Shown one piece after another: positions 5,704-12,177 of a stretch of DNA of 30,977 nt; within the stretch, counting starts at the first letter, position 1; every line of letters begins with the position of its first letter. The position numbers and the translations under genes were made by a program. Source of the stretch: a virus; the IMG/VR virus record IMGVR_UViG_3300047560_000802, positions 1-30,977 of that record; one strand, given 5' to 3'. The notes under the pieces were generated by a model, which was not told where the DNA came from, did no database searches, and was given only the letters and a program-made list of their open reading frames with translations.

Positions 5704-6576
5704 TTACTCAATTTTAAACAATTCAATAAAATTTGAATGTTCCCCCCAATAAGGATGAGTCTTGTATGTTATTAGTCGATTGTAAATTGAATTATGACTT
5801 GTAAAATGTACTCCGTGATTAATGTGGATGGCTTCATTTTCACAATTCCATTGAATCCTTTTTAACTTGTCTGTTTCAATATTTCCACTGTTTGTTAAAA
5901 GTGCATTTGGTAAGATCCTCATACAATGATCAATTGCATCATCAAGAGTCATTGTCATTTGATGAAATGGCTCATCATTTTGAGTCCTTTTTTGCCAACC
6001 ATCTTTATTGATCCCACCATAATTCATATTTGTCAAAACTTGCCCACTTTCAAAATCTGGGTAATCAAAATAATTCTCTGGATAAAGCACATCGTGCTCT
6101 AAGAAACTCACATAATCATATTTCCCCATTTGTTTGCCTAAAAACAAACATTGCATTATTTGCAACAATTGGTTTAAATGGCTTTGAGATCGATACCAAC
6201 TTGGGATGTTATAAAACGGATTTAAGGGCATATTTTCCCAAAGGCAAGTGATTATGTCAGCTTTGCCATTTGAGGCGATTTTTACGCTTTCTAATGACTT
6301 ATAAATGGAATCCCAAATGTCCTTGTTGTTGTTATTGGAGTAAAATATCCCCAATTTACGATTTTGGCTCTTAGGTAATGTAACTAATTCTCCCTCTTTG
6401 TAATTGTCTGTATGTATGATCCCATCGTGTTCCCAGTCAATTGATAAGGTTTTTAATTGCCCAACTTTAGGATCTCCGATGATGTCATTGTTGGCTCTTA
6501 CAACTAATTTGTCGTTGATGACTTGTAATTTATGGGTGCAGTCAACTCCACCATAAAATCCAGATATTACACGCAT
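5704..6576 (-). CDS. Glycosyltransferase-like protein B
   Basis: A 290-residue protein. After an N-terminal region of unclear fold come RKLGIFYSNNNN, then helices (DIWDSIYKSLESVKIAS), WYRSQSHLNQLLQIMQCLFLGKQM and the key stretch YDYVSFLEHDVLYPENYF, about residues 150-170. A buried strand followed by E-H-D with a hydrophobic residue next is the metal-binding DxD-type site of GT-A fold glycosyltransferases. Later HINHGVHFTSHN may supply acceptor- or metal-site histidines. Its start overlaps the end of glycosyltransferase A by 10 bases. No signal peptide, so cytoplasmic. Possible substrate: the poly-Thr tail protein two genes upstream, or the fibre downstream. Could instead modify host glycans. 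Donor sugar unknown. Confidence 0.6.
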   Translation of the reverse strand: MRVISGFYGGVDCTHKLQVINDKLVVRANNDIIGDPKVGQLKTLSIDWEHDGIIHTDNYKEGELVTLPKSQNRKLGIFYSNNNNKDIWDSIYKSLESVKIASNGKADIITCLWENMPLNPFYNIPSWYRSQSHLNQLLQIMQCLFLGKQMGKYDYVSFLEHDVLYPENYFDYPDFESGQVLTNMNYGGINKDGWQKRTQNDEPFHQMTMTLDDAIDHCMRILPNALLTNSGNIETDKLKRIQWNCENEAIHINHGVHFTSHNSIYNRLITYKTHPYWGEHSNFIELFKIE

Positions 6577-7526
6577 AGTACACTTGTTTTAGCAGTCTCT
6601 TGTATTAGTTCAAAATATTTGGTTGCAGCAAATTCTGGCTTTAAGTCCAACTCAACCCCATAAGGTAATTTATTGTTAAATTCTGCCTTATAAAATATGC
6701 CACTAATAGAATCAACTGCTCCAGCGTTATGATAAATATAAAATTTATCCCAATCCTTTTCACTGCTGGTAGCCCAAGCAAAATCCAAGTCTTTATGACA
6801 AATCGTTTTGTGTCCTCGTTTCCATCCATTCCATAGGACCGCCCACATATCAGCACACCAAATTTGTAAAGGATGATAAGGTTGTCTTGAATAACCTGGC
6901 GGCATTGTGTGCCTATCCAGTTCAACTTTCTCGTTGTTTAAATCTGTTATTTCCTTGTATAATCTTTCTGAATCCCTTTCCACATCCGCCCAGAACTCTG
7001 AATCAATACTTTTCATAATGTATTGAGCACCAATTGAGTTATATTCGTTATCCTTGATGATTTGTTTGTCTATGCCCACAATTTCACACATCTTGTCCAG
7101 GACATCTTCTCCTTTGCTTATTATGTATTCATAACTTATATAAAATCTTGTATCTGATCCATACCATTTGTCATCAAATGTAAACTTGTACCAATCCAAT
7201 GGCTTAGTAAACACAATATCACAATCGTGATAAAAAATAGCTTCATCTTTTAACTCTGGGAAATTAGTAAAGTGCTGCTTTAAAATATTAGGTCTAATTG
7301 ATGAAACATAATGTTTTGATTCTCTTTGATCAAAGTAAAAGAAAAACCTGGCAGCATAATGATTTGCAAGTCTGGACCATTCAATTGGTACATTGTCCTC
7401 AATGTAACATACAATATCAATGTTGTTAGGATTAATGCCAATTTTTATAAAATTTTGCAACATTACCTCTACTTGCCAGGCATAGTAAAGTGTTGCTGGT
7501 TGAGCACAAATAAATCTAATCTTCAT
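6567..7526 (-). CDS. Glycosyltransferase-like protein A
   Basis: A 319-residue protein. The N-terminus (MKIRFICAQPATLYYAWQVEVMLQN) is a strand followed by a Y-x-W-Q helix, and residues about 103-114 (AIFYHDCDIVFTKPLDW) hold a clear D-x-D in GT-A position. The rest has many Trp/Tyr/His residues (WYGSDTRFYIS, GAQYIMK, WCADMWAVLW, YHNAGA), as in acceptor-binding regions. The YxWQ start plus DxD recalls peptidyl-serine/hydroxyproline glycosyltransferases of plants and algae; that resemblance is from memory and weak. It starts 10 bases after the poly-Thr tail gene, in the same transcript, suggesting that tail protein as substrate. Cytoplasmic by lack of a signal. Confidence 0.65.
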   Translation of the reverse strand: MKIRFICAQPATLYYAWQVEVMLQNFIKIGINPNNIDIVCYIEDNVPIEWSRLANHYAARFFFYFDQRESKHYVSSIRPNILKQHFTNFPELKDEAIFYHDCDIVFTKPLDWYKFTFDDKWYGSDTRFYISYEYIISKGEDVLDKMCEIVGIDKQIIKDNEYNSIGAQYIMKSIDSEFWADVERDSERLYKEITDLNNEKVELDRHTMPPGYSRQPYHPLQIWCADMWAVLWNGWKRGHKTICHKDLDFAWATSSEKDWDKFYIYHNAGAVDSISGIFYKAEFNNKLPYGVELDLKPEFAATKYFELIQETAKTSVLCV

Positions 7527-7535
7527 ACTTTAAAT

Positions 7536-9821
7536 TTATATTACGTTTCCACAAGTTCCATAAACAACGTATGCGTGTGTAGCAGATACAGTTGTTGTGC
7601 TCGAAGATACACTTTTTGGCAATGTTCCAGAACTTGTTACAACATTATTTATCAAGGCAGAATTATCAAATGTTCTAATTTGTCCTCTTTGACTTATAGT
7701 ATCTCTTGCAGTTTGAGTTATTGTACAATAAAAAGTATCTCCTGGTGCAATACTCATTGCAACAGATGCCCCATCAAAATCAAGGGTATAAAATAAAGAT
7801 CCATTTTTATATACATTCATATAACCATCATTATTGGCATCAAAATTCAAATAGAATTGAGCATCTGGAGTAACTGGCAAAGTAGTAGTTGTTGTTGTAG
7901 TCGTAGTAGTCGTAGCACAAGCTGGAGTAATACCTTTAGCCAAAACGTTGGTTGGGTTGTTTTTATCCCTCACTGCAACATAATGAGCAGTATCATCTTG
8001 ATTAAAGAAAGTCCTTGATCCACTCGTTTCATCCGTAAACGCACCAGCATAAGCAGCCGATGGAGATGCATAAGTTTGAGTACTTACTTGATAAGTTCCA
8101 GAGCCACCAGTAAATGAATTTACAGTTATTGATGACGTTCCACCTCCACAAGTATAGGAAATGTTAAAATTCACGGCAGCTAAAGTAGTTGTGGTCGTTG
8201 TCGTTGTTGTAGTAGCTGGACAACCACTTAAACCAGTTGCCGTAATTGATAAAGCAGCCCCACCAGGATCAGTTGTTAATACTTGATCAATACGGAATGT
8301 TTGACCAGTTGAGGTAACTCGATCATTTAAAGCAAATGTACCAGCTAAATAGTCTTTTGAATAAGTTATTGCAGCAGTGGCACAATTGTATAACTTATAC
8401 CAATTTGGTGGTATTGTTGTTGTAGTAGTGGTTGTTGGTGCAGCCGTTGTAGTTGTCGTAGTGGTAGGGCAATTTGTATCGTTTGAACTCACACCAGAAT
8501 CGTTGATTTGAATAGCAACTCCACCATAAGAAAACCACTGATCCGCACCTGGATATAAAACCAATGGCACATCTGGAGCAGTAGAACTACCAGTATAATA
8601 AGTCTCTCCACTACCCCACGTATTTGAGTATGCCCAAAGATAAATTGACTTTGCAGCGGCACAAGCTGCACTTGATCCGTTTCTACCAGTGTTAGTATAA
8701 AACTTAAATCCAGGCAATGACAAAGTGGTTGTTGTAGTGGTAGTAGTACAATCTGGAGTAATTGACTTAACTCTTACATTGCTTGTATTGTTTTTATCTC
8801 TTACACCAACAAAAGCCTCAGCAGTAGCAGACCAGCCATAAAAAGTCCTTGTACCAGCAGTTTCATCTGTAAAAGTTCCAGCATAAGCAGCAGATGCACT
8901 TGCATAAACTTGACTTGAAACTTGATAATCGCCAGATCCATTTGTAAAATTGTCAACTGTAATATTTGACAAACCAGCACTACAAGTATAGCTGATATCA
9001 AAGTTTACTAAAGGTGCAGCAGTTGTTGTTGTTGTAGTTGTAGTAGTTGCTGGACATCCAGTATCTCCAGTAGCAGTAATACTTAAAGCCAATCCACTTG
9101 GATCAGTGTAAAGTACTTGAGTAATTTTAAAAGTTTGAGATAAAGCAGTAACTCGATCATCAACTGCAAAATCTCCGTTTAAATAATCTTTTGAATACTC
9201 AATAGCAGCAGTAGCACAGTTATAAAGTTTATACCAAACTTTAGCCTTTGTTGTTGTTGTGGTTGTAGTCGTGGTAGTTGTTGTAGTAGATGTCGTTGTG
9301 GTTGTAGTCGTAGTAGTACTGGTTGTAGTAGTAGTCGATGTTGTGGTCGATGTAGTACTTGTTGAGGTACTTGTGGTACTTGTAGTAGTAGTTGGAGTTT
9401 TCTCTGTGTAATATTTACCAGTACCAGTTAAATTCACACTGTATGTTCCAATTTCATTATAGTTCCCACTAATAGAAAACCCACTGATAAAACAATATCC
9501 ACTTATGTATCTAAATCCATCAACTCCATTGTCAATTTGGAATCTTGTTAAAAATAAAGTTCTATTTTTTTGTGCATAAGCAATCTCATCATAAGAGAAT
9601 CCATCCAGTGTAACAATGCCCTCACAACTCATTGCCCAAGTAGAAAGATTATCCTTAGGTAAATTAAACCAGGCATTTGTTGATGATGCTATCTCAACCA
9701 ATTCGGTTTGTGTGCTAAAAGTACAGTTTGTAGAACACGCAAAAGCAGTCTCTGTTGCTGGGATTGTACTGGTATCAACCTTGTACAAAATTACATTACT
9801 GCCATTTACTTTAACTGCCAT
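7536..9821 (-). CDS. Modular tail protein with poly-Thr linkers
   Basis: A 761-residue protein. Residues 1-141 are a tail-tube-like domain paralogous to the gene just upstream (shared FACSTNCTF, WFN, C(D/E)GIVTL, IGTYSV/ISTYSV). A 51-residue Thr/Ser linker follows (about 142-192). Then come globular domains in the order A-B-C-A'-B'-D, each separated by 8-18 Thr: A (WYKLYNCATAA, ~196-258), B (SYTCSAG...DKNN, ~272-359), C (~370-452), A' (~474-536), B' (~549-637), D (~650-761). Most domains contain paired Cys. It is probably a displayed tail or tail-tip decoration protein, anchored by its tube-like domain and with the domains strung out as flexible beads. Poly-Thr is a potential O-glycosylation platform; two glycosyltransferase-like genes follow directly. 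Confidence 0.75.
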   Translation of the reverse strand: MAVKVNGSNVILYKVDTSTIPATETAFACSTNCTFSTQTELVEIASSTNAWFNLPKDNLSTWAMSCEGIVTLDGFSYDEIAYAQKNRTLFLTRFQIDNGVDGFRYISGYCFISGFSISGNYNEIGTYSVNLTGTGKYYTEKTPTTTTSTTSTSTSTTSTTTSTTTTTSTTTTTTTTTSTTTTTTTTTTTTTKAKVWYKLYNCATAAIEYSKDYLNGDFAVDDRVTALSQTFKITQVLYTDPSGLALSITATGDTGCPATTTTTTTTTAAPLVNFDISYTCSAGLSNITVDNFTNGSGDYQVSSQVYASASAAYAGTFTDETAGTRTFYGWSATAEAFVGVRDKNNTSNVRVKSITPDCTTTTTTTTLSLPGFKFYTNTGRNGSSAACAAAKSIYLWAYSNTWGSGETYYTGSSTAPDVPLVLYPGADQWFSYGGVAIQINDSGVSSNDTNCPTTTTTTTAAPTTTTTTTIPPNWYKLYNCATAAITYSKDYLAGTFALNDRVTSTGQTFRIDQVLTTDPGGAALSITATGLSGCPATTTTTTTTTTLAAVNFNISYTCGGGTSSITVNSFTGGSGTYQVSTQTYASPSAAYAGAFTDETSGSRTFFNQDDTAHYVAVRDKNNPTNVLAKGITPACATTTTTTTTTTTLPVTPDAQFYLNFDANNDGYMNVYKNGSLFYTLDFDGASVAMSIAPGDTFYCTITQTARDTISQRGQIRTFDNSALINNVVTSSGTLPKSVSSSTTTVSATHAYVVYGTCGNVI
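7915..9240 (-). repeat. Duplicated A-B domain pair in tail protein
   Basis: Domain pair A-B (A near 9047-9236, B near 8745-9008) recurs as A'-B' (near 8213-8402 and 7911-8176). A and A' share WYKLYNCATAAI, YSKDYL, DRVT, QTF and ALSITATG; B and B' share ISYTC, GSGxYQVS, YASxSAAYAG, FTDET and VRDKNN. DNA identity is high but clearly below 100%, so the duplication is not recent. Confidence 0.8.
9246..9398 (-). repeat. Longest Thr/Ser linker-coding tract
   Basis: About 51 codons, nearly all Thr with scattered Ser. All four Thr codons (ACA, ACT, ACC, ACG) are mixed irregularly, so this is not a pure trinucleotide repeat. Shorter tracts lie near 9009-9047, 8718-8744, 8409-8462, 8177-8210 and 7877-7910. 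Confidence 0.85.
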
Positions 9822-9833: not shown

Positions 9834-10244
9834 CTAAGATATTGTGTAAGCCCCAACCCCTTGCAAAGCAACAGAATAAGTTGAAATGTCCTTATAAGGT
9901 GCGTTTAATGTAATAGATGTAATTATTGCAGTTCCACTGAGGACTACAAACCCACTTGATCCGTTGTCAATACTAAACTTTATATTAATTGTGGATCTGG
10001 ATAATTGAGTATTTAACATATCAGCATAAGAGTACCCAGTCAAAGTAACAATACCATCACAAGTTACATTCCAAGTTGCAACATCAATTTTGTATTCATT
10101 AAACCAGGCAGATGATTGACTTGTTACATCTTTTTGACTCACTTGAACATTAAAGGTGCAATTAGTTGAACACGCAAAAGCCGTGTTTGTTGCTCCAACA
10201 GTTTTATAAAGGATAATATTTTTGCCTTGAACTTTATCTGCCAT
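9834..10244 (-). CDS. Tail-tube-like protein, second copy
   Basis: A 136-residue protein (MADKVQGKNIILYK...) made of beta strands: FACSTNCTFNV, SSAWFNEYKIDVATWNVTCDGIVTLTGYSYAD, KFSIDNGSSG, ISTYSVALQGVGAYTIS. The layout, including the W-x-V-x-C-D-G-I-V core, fits the TP901-1-type tail tube fold, and it aligns by eye along its whole length with residues 1-141 of the next gene. It lies after the tape measure and tip genes rather than in the usual tube position (14379-14831), so it is more likely a tip or decoration ring than the main tube. Two bases separate it from the gene upstream. Confidence 0.6.
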   Translation of the reverse strand: MADKVQGKNIILYKTVGATNTAFACSTNCTFNVQVSQKDVTSQSSAWFNEYKIDVATWNVTCDGIVTLTGYSYADMLNTQLSRSTINIKFSIDNGSSGFVVLSGTAIITSITLNAPYKDISTYSVALQGVGAYTIS

Positions 10245-10245
10245 T

Positions 10246-12177
10246 TTATAAGTTATTATTCGTTATTACATTAGTTGAGTTAGTGCAAGTTATATCTGTA
10301 TTTGATATCTGCAATAAAGTAGCTTTAGTACTATCCAGAACATAATCAATTGTTGAATTTCCCAACATATAAGAATTACTTGAAATGTTTATTTGACTTG
10401 GATCTGTGTCAGTAGCTTTTAGCATTTTAGTTGCATTCATAATTCCATTAGCAGTATCAAAACTTGTTAATGAACAATCCAAATTGATAATATTTTTAGC
10501 AAATATGTTCATATATTGTTGCATCAAAAGCCCAACAATGCTGGTATAAGAAACCGCTCTGCCTTGTTGATACCAACCAGATGTTACAATTCCATTGCTT
10601 AAAAGGAATGCTCCTTTTTCAGTTGCATAACTACCTCCACTAACTGCATATCCATAAGGGATCTCTATTTCTTTAACATATTGTTTATTCGATGTTAAAT
10701 AAGATAAATATTCAACATAATCAGTAACTGGAGTAATAGTCATTTTTAGATTGCTCACAGTAATATTTGTTCCAGATCCAGTCTCCATACTAATCTTAAA
10801 AAATACTTGACCAGCTATTGGGGCTAAAGCAGTTGTAAAACTATATGAATTTACTCCACCAGTTTTAGCACCCTCATTGTTATATTGTGGAACATCAAAA
10901 GAACTAATTGTACCATTTATCCAGGTAGTACCATCCCAGTAATAAGTTGATGATGTTCCAACAATTGAAACGTAAATAGTTCCTCTTTTGCCACTAAAAT
11001 CTTGCCCTTGATAAATCCAACTAAAAGTCATTAATTCGCCAGATCCCACATAAGGACCAGATGCTGGTTGTCCAGCAGCAGCTAATTTAACCTCTAATGA
11101 TGCCTGGTTTCCAATTCCTTTGTATAATGTAATCCTTGCAGAGTCCTCATCAATATTGCTCACATACGTTACACTACCACTACCAGTGTAAGATGCAGTC
11201 CAATTCTCTGGACTAATTGATGATCCACTTTGTAATGGTCTTAAATTACCATTTGATAAGTAATTATAAGCCGTTTCTGCTTGTTTTGTAAATGCAATTT
11301 GATTAAAACCTTTAAGCAATAACTTAAACTGACTATTATCAATAAAAAATACATTACTTGTATTTCCAGTGTAACCTTGAATCAAACTAAATCTATTAAA
11401 TTGACCAGCAGTTACCACTGTGCCAGTATAAGTATATTCTGTATAATAAACATTTTCGTTTGCAAATTCATTAACTGCAACAATCCACCATTTGCCTTGA
11501 GCCATAAATATTCTACACCCAAAAGATTTAACCAGATTGGTAATTACATCCAAACAATTTATATAAGTATAATCTTGATTTTGAAAAGTCCTATAAGGCA
11601 AATATGTTTGTGAAAATGGCTCATATTGTGCTCCAGTTGTACGATTACTCATAGTTGATGCATAATATGAACAAGCCGTAACAATATTAGGATTTGTTGG
11701 TAAATTAAGCGTATTTAAAGCCGTATAAAAATAAAAAAGCACACTATTATTTGTGTTTGTATTAACTGTATTTGGTATTGGTAAAGGAATATCTTTGAGC
11801 ATTCCTAAAGCATCAACACAGTTAAAAAAAACTTGCTTTCTACCAGTTGAAAAAGATAATTGAACGTTGTCTGATAATACAAATCCAGTCCACTCCAAAT
11901 CAGCATTCAAATACAATTTAGCAAAATATTTTCGGTCATCCAATGTTACAAAATTTGGCATATTAGTCAAATCATCCGTTACATCCATTGTAACATTTAA
12001 TTGACTTGCAAATATTGGCTCAAATGGATCATCCGATTTTGGTAAATATTGTAATGATAAATTTACTCCTGGATATTCATATACAGTTCCAGAATAGCCA
12101 TCCTCTTGTAGATATAAATATGCGGTTTTGCTTGTTTTAGTAGCAAATGTCAACTTGTATTTGTTTCCGTATGCCAT
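10246..12177 (-). CDS. Tail-tip / baseplate hub candidate
   Basis: A 643-residue protein directly after the tape measure, coupled by TAATG. The N-terminal part (MAYGNKYKLTFATKTSKTAY, VTMDVTDDLTNMPNFVTLDD, YLNADLEWTGFVL, FNCVDALGMLKDIPL) is the conserved start of tail proteins found in this position in Bacteroidota phages. A middle region (NCLDVITNLVKSFGCRIFMAQGKWWIVAVNEF) recalls hub proteins of the gp27/Dit-Tal type, and a jelly-roll-like segment follows (SYTGSGSVTY to TVSNLKMTI, about residues 325-465). Role inferred from position: closes the tube and carries side fibres. No peptidase motif seen. Confidence 0.6.
   Translation of the reverse strand: MAYGNKYKLTFATKTSKTAYLYLQEDGYSGTVYEYPGVNLSLQYLPKSDDPFEPIFASQLNVTMDVTDDLTNMPNFVTLDDRKYFAKLYLNADLEWTGFVLSDNVQLSFSTGRKQVFFNCVDALGMLKDIPLPIPNTVNTNTNNSVLFYFYTALNTLNLPTNPNIVTACSYYASTMSNRTTGAQYEPFSQTYLPYRTFQNQDYTYINCLDVITNLVKSFGCRIFMAQGKWWIVAVNEFANENVYYTEYTYTGTVVTAGQFNRFSLIQGYTGNTSNVFFIDNSQFKLLLKGFNQIAFTKQAETAYNYLSNGNLRPLQSGSSISPENWTASYTGSGSVTYVSNIDEDSARITLYKGIGNQASLEVKLAAAGQPASGPYVGSGELMTFSWIYQGQDFSGKRGTIYVSIVGTSSTYYWDGTTWINGTISSFDVPQYNNEGAKTGGVNSYSFTTALAPIAGQVFFKISMETGSGTNITVSNLKMTITPVTDYVEYLSYLTSNKQYVKEIEIPYGYAVSGGSYATEKGAFLLSNGIVTSGWYQQGRAVSYTSIVGLLMQQYMNIFAKNIINLDCSLTSFDTANGIMNATKMLKATDTDPSQINISSNSYMLGNSTIDYVLDSTKATLLQISNTDITCTNSTNVITNNNL

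Follow-up and report, generated by a model that had tools for sequence, protein, structure and literature searches.

A predicted phage cassette for O-glycosylation of poly-threonine virion proteins, centred on the protein family phrog_4417

The window analysed here is the whole of a linear IMG/VR virus record (IMGVR_UViG_3300047560_000802; 30,977 bases), which carries phage structural genes on its minus strand. Among them is a tail protein with threonine/serine linkers (the poly-Thr protein, 761 residues, 7536..9821), followed by genes for two predicted glycosyltransferases (GTs), here called GT1 (319 residues, 6567..7526) and GT2 (290 residues, 5704..6576); all three reading frames are open on the minus strand, on which all window features described below also lie. 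We propose, with a probability of roughly 0.78, that the phage encodes in this cluster a cassette for O-glycosylation of its virion, in which GT1 primes the poly-Thr tracts and GT2 or variable GTs extend or cap the product. GT1 would be a cytosolic, probably nucleotide-sugar-dependent enzyme of GT-A fold that places the first sugar on threonines of the tracts. The tracts would serve as portable acceptor tags, placed as linkers in the tail protein of the window and as C-terminal tails of tail and capsid proteins elsewhere. GT2, or a set of GT32 and GT family 2 enzymes in related phages, would then extend or cap the first sugar, and the outcome would be a phage-specific glycan built on a common primer. 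Catalysis, threonine as the acceptor, the priming role of GT1, the extending role of GT2, the identity of the sugar and the benefit to the phage are what we infer from the observations that follow.

Comparison of sequences strongly supports the link between GT1 and poly-Thr, because of the position of GT1, the independent recurrence of the pairing and its gain and loss together with the tags. A strict poly-Thr run was defined as a 10-mer with at least nine Thr or Ser and at least seven Thr. GT1 relatives were taken from 370 IMG/VR stretches (80 kept) and 74 phage records; made non-redundant at 80% identity, they gave 24 loci, in which positions -6 to +6 were scored. The gene directly upstream of GT1 encodes a strict run in 18/24 loci, against 7/211 at the other positions (p=1.4e-16), and by N-terminal sequence the 18 upstream proteins form eight unrelated groups. 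It could be argued that the GTs act on wall polysaccharide, lipopolysaccharide or capsule at the host surface, leading to superinfection block or serotype change, and that poly-Thr stretches are flexible spacers lying nearby by chance. Phage GTs are well known to act in this way, enzymes of the GT family 2 and GT32 types are common in glycan synthesis, and poly-Thr genes without GT1 exist. However, this explanation predicts neither the adjacency, nor a GT1 without membrane segments, nor the gain and loss with tags in near-isogenic phages, and we consider it quite improbable. One group of GT1 loci without a poly-Thr neighbour (L029-L059 and L091-L100) was regarded as a candidate exception to the link and was rejected as such at the level of whole records, 19/24 of those examined carrying runs elsewhere. 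Short fragments make up most of the records without runs; TVTPTVTP repeats are found in L072.

Isolated phages lead to the same association. Sixteen GT1-positive isolates with mostly Gram-positive hosts were examined: Enterococcus phages phiFL2A, 4995_1, TJE4 and vipetofem; Staphylococcus phage SA2; Lactococcus phages CHPC836, P1046 and bIL285; the Lacticaseibacillus/Lactobacillus phages R3.3, iLp84, Iacchus, 521B and LP65; Arcanobacterium phage TPWB06; Chryseobacterium phage MA9V-3; and one further phage. Thr-rich tags are present in 16/16, on capsid, tail or adjacent proteins; most are C-terminal tails, carried by the major tail protein or the major capsid protein or by the two together. The tail protein of phiFL2A ends in GTTTTTSTTTTTTSSTTTTTTTQASSK, whereas in CHPC836 the capsid protein ends in PTTTTTTQATTTTTSHA and the tail protein in STTTTTTTHA. 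Scanning of the tail-gene segment found a poly-Thr tag in 0/11 phages that have homologous major tail proteins and no phrog_4417, the family of GT1, genome-wide. Genome-wide runs of six ACN codons occur in 14/16 GT1-positive and 1/11 GT1-negative records (p=7.7e-5), and the sole run in the latter is an ACT repeat close to the end of the Bassarid genome. The closest comparison is provided by SA2 and three phages without GT1, SEP9, 6ec and S-CoN_Ph2, which match it at about 89% identity in the body of the tail protein: the SA2 protein ends in DDSTTTTTTTTP, the other three in GSENTNSTPSGRLVDD or nearly so, and only SA2 has the tag. The linker of a protease differs likewise, being poly-Thr in SA2 and rich in Ser, Asp and Gln in SEP9. 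In phiFL2A itself the GT1 gene (L109:5001-5910) is split over two frames by a frameshift, the annotation covering only its 3' end (gp49); the split may reflect an inactive gene or an error of sequencing.

These isolates also bear on the proposal that poly-Thr tracts are unmodified low-complexity spacers which accompany GT1 through shared descent of mobile tail cassettes. Cassette transfer does occur, since many of the upstream poly-Thr proteins have bead domains in common, to the extent that single linkage joins 16/18 of them. Nevertheless, in GT1-positive phages tags are found also on capsids, on unrelated tail proteins and on the protease linker, and the 89%-identical tail proteins are without a tag where GT1 is absent, which makes shared descent a highly improbable explanation of the link.

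GT1 matches phrog_4417 over its full length (E=1.3e-64, residues 4-311 on profile positions 2-291 of 293), a family of unknown function that some records name 'prophage pi2 protein 34'. Pfam and NCBIfam profiles gave no significant match for 34 GT1 members or for P0002 and thereby place GT1 in none of the named families GT8, GT24 and GT6, and a sequence search of the PDB with GT1 returned zero matches. The AlphaFold2 model of GT1, made from 34 sequences, has a predicted local distance difference test (pLDDT) score of 95.3. Foldseek found 117 PDB matches for it at E<=0.001; those listed are glycosyltransferases and include UGGT (GT24), LgtC and glycogenin (GT8) and the blood-group enzymes GTA/GTB (GT6). 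On the model, GT1 is predicted to be a GT-A fold glycosyltransferase of the GT24/GT8/GT6 kind, with a like position of the DxD motif; identity to these enzymes is about 7-12%, and the kinship is one of fold only. GT1 is probably retaining, because all three families are retaining, an argument made from the fold. The DxD motif (D101-C102-D103, 7218..7226) sits in the predicted model between strands 96-100 and 104-106, where the nucleotide-binding sheet of GT-A enzymes ends, and it is conserved without exception in 41/41 relatives, among them those from phages of Gram-positive hosts. An earlier, sequence-only reading of the window had taken both enzymes to be glycosyltransferase-like, and structure prediction agrees for GT1 and, as described below, for GT2. 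The motifs it named are present in both, at positions other than those it gave (the EHD motif of GT2, for instance, is at 160-162, not about 157).

No transmembrane stretch was found in the GT1 or GT2 sequences, and both enzymes look cytosolic. The same reading had argued from the general protein O-glycosylation of Bacteroidota that a phage version is plausible; the host system is not needed, as the GT1 family occurs in Firmicutes phages too. The acceptor motif and the periplasmic transfer of that system do not fit the cluster: the poly-Thr protein has only two D[ST][AILVMT] motifs (610 and 707), neither in a tract, and the enzymes have no membrane segment. Another possible target of GT1 is phage DNA with hypermodified bases. 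Several phage GTs modify DNA, a role cited in PMC12619734, and the acceptor of GT1 is so far a predicted one. Yet a DNA target leaves the association with poly-Thr proteins and the late structural position unexplained, and no base-modification genes were noticed among the window reading frames, for which no systematic search was made; we hold this explanation to be extremely unlikely. In Pedobacter, Sphingobacterium and Dysgonomonas genomes (L118-L122) the GT1 domain is fused to about 200 extra residues, and this group may form a branch of the family that is cellular or carried by an element.

The GT2 model (25 sequences; pLDDT 91.3) gave 44 PDB matches in Foldseek at E<=0.001, nearly all of them glycosyltransferases, including SpsA, BoGT6a, TarP and the capsid GT of the chlorovirus PBCV-1. 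GT2 is predicted from this model to be a GT-A glycosyltransferase, and its putative role is that of a replaceable extending or capping enzyme. The EHD motif (residues 160-162, 6091..6099) is invariant in the 25 sequences and occupies the DxD position of GT-A enzymes. The GT-A-like domain is preceded by an N-terminal beta domain (residues 1-72, 6361..6576) with a weak likeness to DnaJ-like_C11_C (PF11875), seen in 2/25 members with a best E of 0.0026. Two further candidates were rejected for GT2, a weak Pua-like Pfam match under the cut-off and a lectin match in the PDB sequence search, which covers only 25 residues (E=0.00037) and was judged to be chance. The N-terminal domain recurs in two other poly-Thr cassettes, in L104 (8874-9680) with a Glycos_transf_2 domain as its fusion partner and in L079 (8934-9923) with an unassigned protein; it is perhaps an acceptor- or virion-binding module.

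The relation between GT2 and GT1 is regular in place and variable in content. In 42/43 loci GT2 follows GT1 at a distance of one to three genes, across very different genome settings; it is missing from 24/80 GT1 loci within the DNA stretches examined. Loci L006 and L004 have GT1 proteins that are 90% identical and poly-Thr proteins with N-termini that are 92% identical; L004 carries GT2, and L006 has in its place a Gly_transf_sug enzyme (PF04488, GT32-type) and a Glycos_transf_2 enzyme. In L072 three more GTs recognized by Pfam lie behind GT1. By these comparisons of gene content GT2 is an exchangeable partner of GT1. In the proposed order GT1 would prime, because it is the constant member, and the variable members that lie behind it would extend. 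It is also conceivable that GT1 acts on poly-Thr while GT2 and the other downstream GTs have another target, the two being independent systems. The loci without GT2 would fit this, as would several GT1-positive isolates with no annotated GT adjoining GT1; the constant downstream position of GT2 and its replacement in place by other GTs speak for a joint pathway, and we judge two separate systems to be unlikely.

The reverse association was examined with 50 viral contigs that have a poly-Thr protein and were picked by DNA pattern alone. GT1 is present in 11/50, which led to rejection of the idea that every poly-Thr phage carries GT1. Control contigs with the same DNA pattern and no coded strict run had GT1 in 1/24, and that one (L203) has PTTTTTTT repeats just upstream of GT1, below the strict threshold. 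GT1 therefore predicts poly-Thr far better than the reverse. The sequence-only reading had treated tail protein and both enzymes as a self-contained unit, a view given up in the light of the missing or swapped GT2, including in close relatives, and of these 11/50 contigs. From its enzyme-substrate link we retain the part that joins GT1 to poly-Thr; similarly, the joint gain and loss that it proposed to survey is observed for GT1 with tags in isolates, but not for the exchangeable GT2, nor for the many poly-Thr contigs without GT1.

Several observations weigh against the proposed cassette. Judged by these contigs poly-Thr alone does not imply GT1, which is not visible in 39/50, many of these being fragments. 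The isolates are related by descent, and the association gives only a weak p of 0.04-0.05 when the test is confined to one tail-protein family. In 521B and LP65 the Thr repeats are interrupted (TTVAPTTVKP; TTTETQTQTQ) and are not pure runs. Best TM-scores in Foldseek were modest, at 0.34-0.48 by query length; EHD stands in place of DxD in GT2, which matched no curated family; and the fused bacterial relatives of GT1 mostly have no clear poly-Thr neighbour. As for poly-Thr genes with other enzymes, reading by eye found them followed by other GT-like genes in L202, L165 and L236. In L202 (5124-6653), with no GT1 on the DNA examined, the poly-Thr gene is followed by a protein resembling a family-2 glycosyltransferase, and such enzymes may serve other poly-Thr proteins.

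The nearest functional precedent is the Che8-type virion glycosylation of mycobacteriophages, reportedly described by Freeman et al. in 2023. Che8-type systems likewise have phage-encoded GTs, and their glycans are reported at capsid and tail tube C-termini. On the other hand, gp6 and gp11 of Che8 have no poly-Thr C-terminus, the three annotated GTs gp108-110 have no significant match to hidden Markov models of GT1 and GT2, and phrog_4417 is absent from Che8. By analogy, the poly-Thr system would work like the mycobacteriophage one, of which it is not a member by either enzyme or acceptor. The PBCV-1 capsid GT (PDB 2p73/2p6w) is also a virus-encoded GT-A enzyme that glycosylates a virion protein, though at about 10% sequence identity to GT2 and in another host domain; we know of no poly-Thr acceptor for it. 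In serine-rich-repeat adhesins, GtfA/GtfB and extending GTs carry out priming and extension. Here as there a constant primer is encoded beside a low-complexity Ser/Thr acceptor with variable extending GTs behind; the adhesin system differs in being bacterial and secreted, with GT-B primers and dedicated secretion, whereas the present one would join virion proteins to a GT-A enzyme. The account of the mycobacteriophage glycans, and of the phage GTs that make them, follows citations in PMC12619734, PMC11256854 and PMC13313380. A literature search for poly-Thr or Thr-rich phage glycosylation, with bioRxiv and most subscription journals outside its coverage, found no description.

We lean towards a wider reading as well, namely that poly-Thr is a general portable glycosylation tag of tailed phages, read by the single family phrog_4417 whether the phage infects Bacteroidota, Firmicutes or, in at least one case, an actinobacterial host. 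The tag would be attached to whichever virion protein is to receive sugar, sometimes apparently by recoding on a fraction of copies, and swappable GTs downstream would write a glycan specific to the phage. This would provide a predicted function for an unnamed family, which 74 sequenced phage records and viral contigs by the hundred contain, as well as a rule, readable from sequence, for which virion proteins carry glycans. It would turn the Thr runs of phage tail and capsid proteins, a common oddity, into a testable modification system, and it points to more than one origin of virion glycosylation and to a spread much wider than mycobacteriophages. A GT specific for a peptide tag could also be useful for in vitro protein labelling.

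In the window, the predicted acceptor begins with a Phage_tail_2 tail-tube domain (PF06199, E=4.7e-10; residues 10-137, 9411..9794) and matches the major tail protein family phrog_1407 (E=4.4e-12). It continues with six beads of three kinds, some duplicated, which are joined by the linkers. Linker 1 is a Thr/Ser stretch of 51 residues (142-192, 9246..9398); the Thr linkers 2 to 6 are at residues 258-268 (9018..9050), 358-368 (8718..8750), 452-460 plus 462-470 as two tracts (8412..8468), 536-547 (8181..8216) and 636-648 (7878..7916). The six linkers noticed from the letters alone are thus confirmed as seven tracts totalling 116 residues (93 Thr and 9 Ser), with 5 strict runs, where 1000 shuffles that keep the composition give a mean of 0.063; strict runs number 0 in the 14 other window genes checked. 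The tracts use all four Thr codons, mixed much as outside them, and because of this they are not a DNA microsatellite: it is the amino acid, not a DNA repeat, that is conserved. The gene order noted earlier is likewise as described, GT1 starting 10 nucleotides past the stop of the poly-Thr gene and overlapping GT2 by 10 nucleotides (6567-6576), which as sequence features are consistent with a single transcript. The host is presumably a member of Bacteroidota, because relatives occur in metagenome-assembled genomes of Bacteroidota and in a Chryseobacterium phage.

Directly upstream of the poly-Thr gene is a paralogous tail-tube protein without linkers (9834..10244; Phage_tail_2 E=2.9e-9, phrog_1407 3.6e-18). 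Three tail-tube-like domains of phrog_1407 are thus seen in one phage (14379-14831, 9834-10244 and 9411-9794), of which the first precedes the tape measure gene and the other two follow it; the poly-Thr beads are on the last. The distal tail protein (10246-12177) was also used as a scan anchor and gave 6 loci, too few for a presence/absence comparison.

Some isolates show poly-Thr stretches beyond annotated stop codons. In SA2 (L113:4667-4930) and TPWB06 (L114:4720-4926) the major tail protein ends in TTTP at CCC-TAA and a poly-Thr reading frame continues in the +1 frame; this proline-stop context is that of the +1 frameshift in the tail proteins of SPP1 and PSA, and a fraction of the tail subunits of both phages may receive a long poly-Thr tail. 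In vipetofem (L260:3692-3880) and TJE4 (L115:4800-4960) a poly-Thr frame is open at -1 between the capsid stop and GT1, preceded by an A-rich possible slip site, an arrangement that suggests recoded extensions of both capsid proteins. The stretch in vipetofem is annotated as a minus-strand gene, and bIL285 (L257:3447-3480) has a short poly-Thr stretch in frame past the capsid stop.

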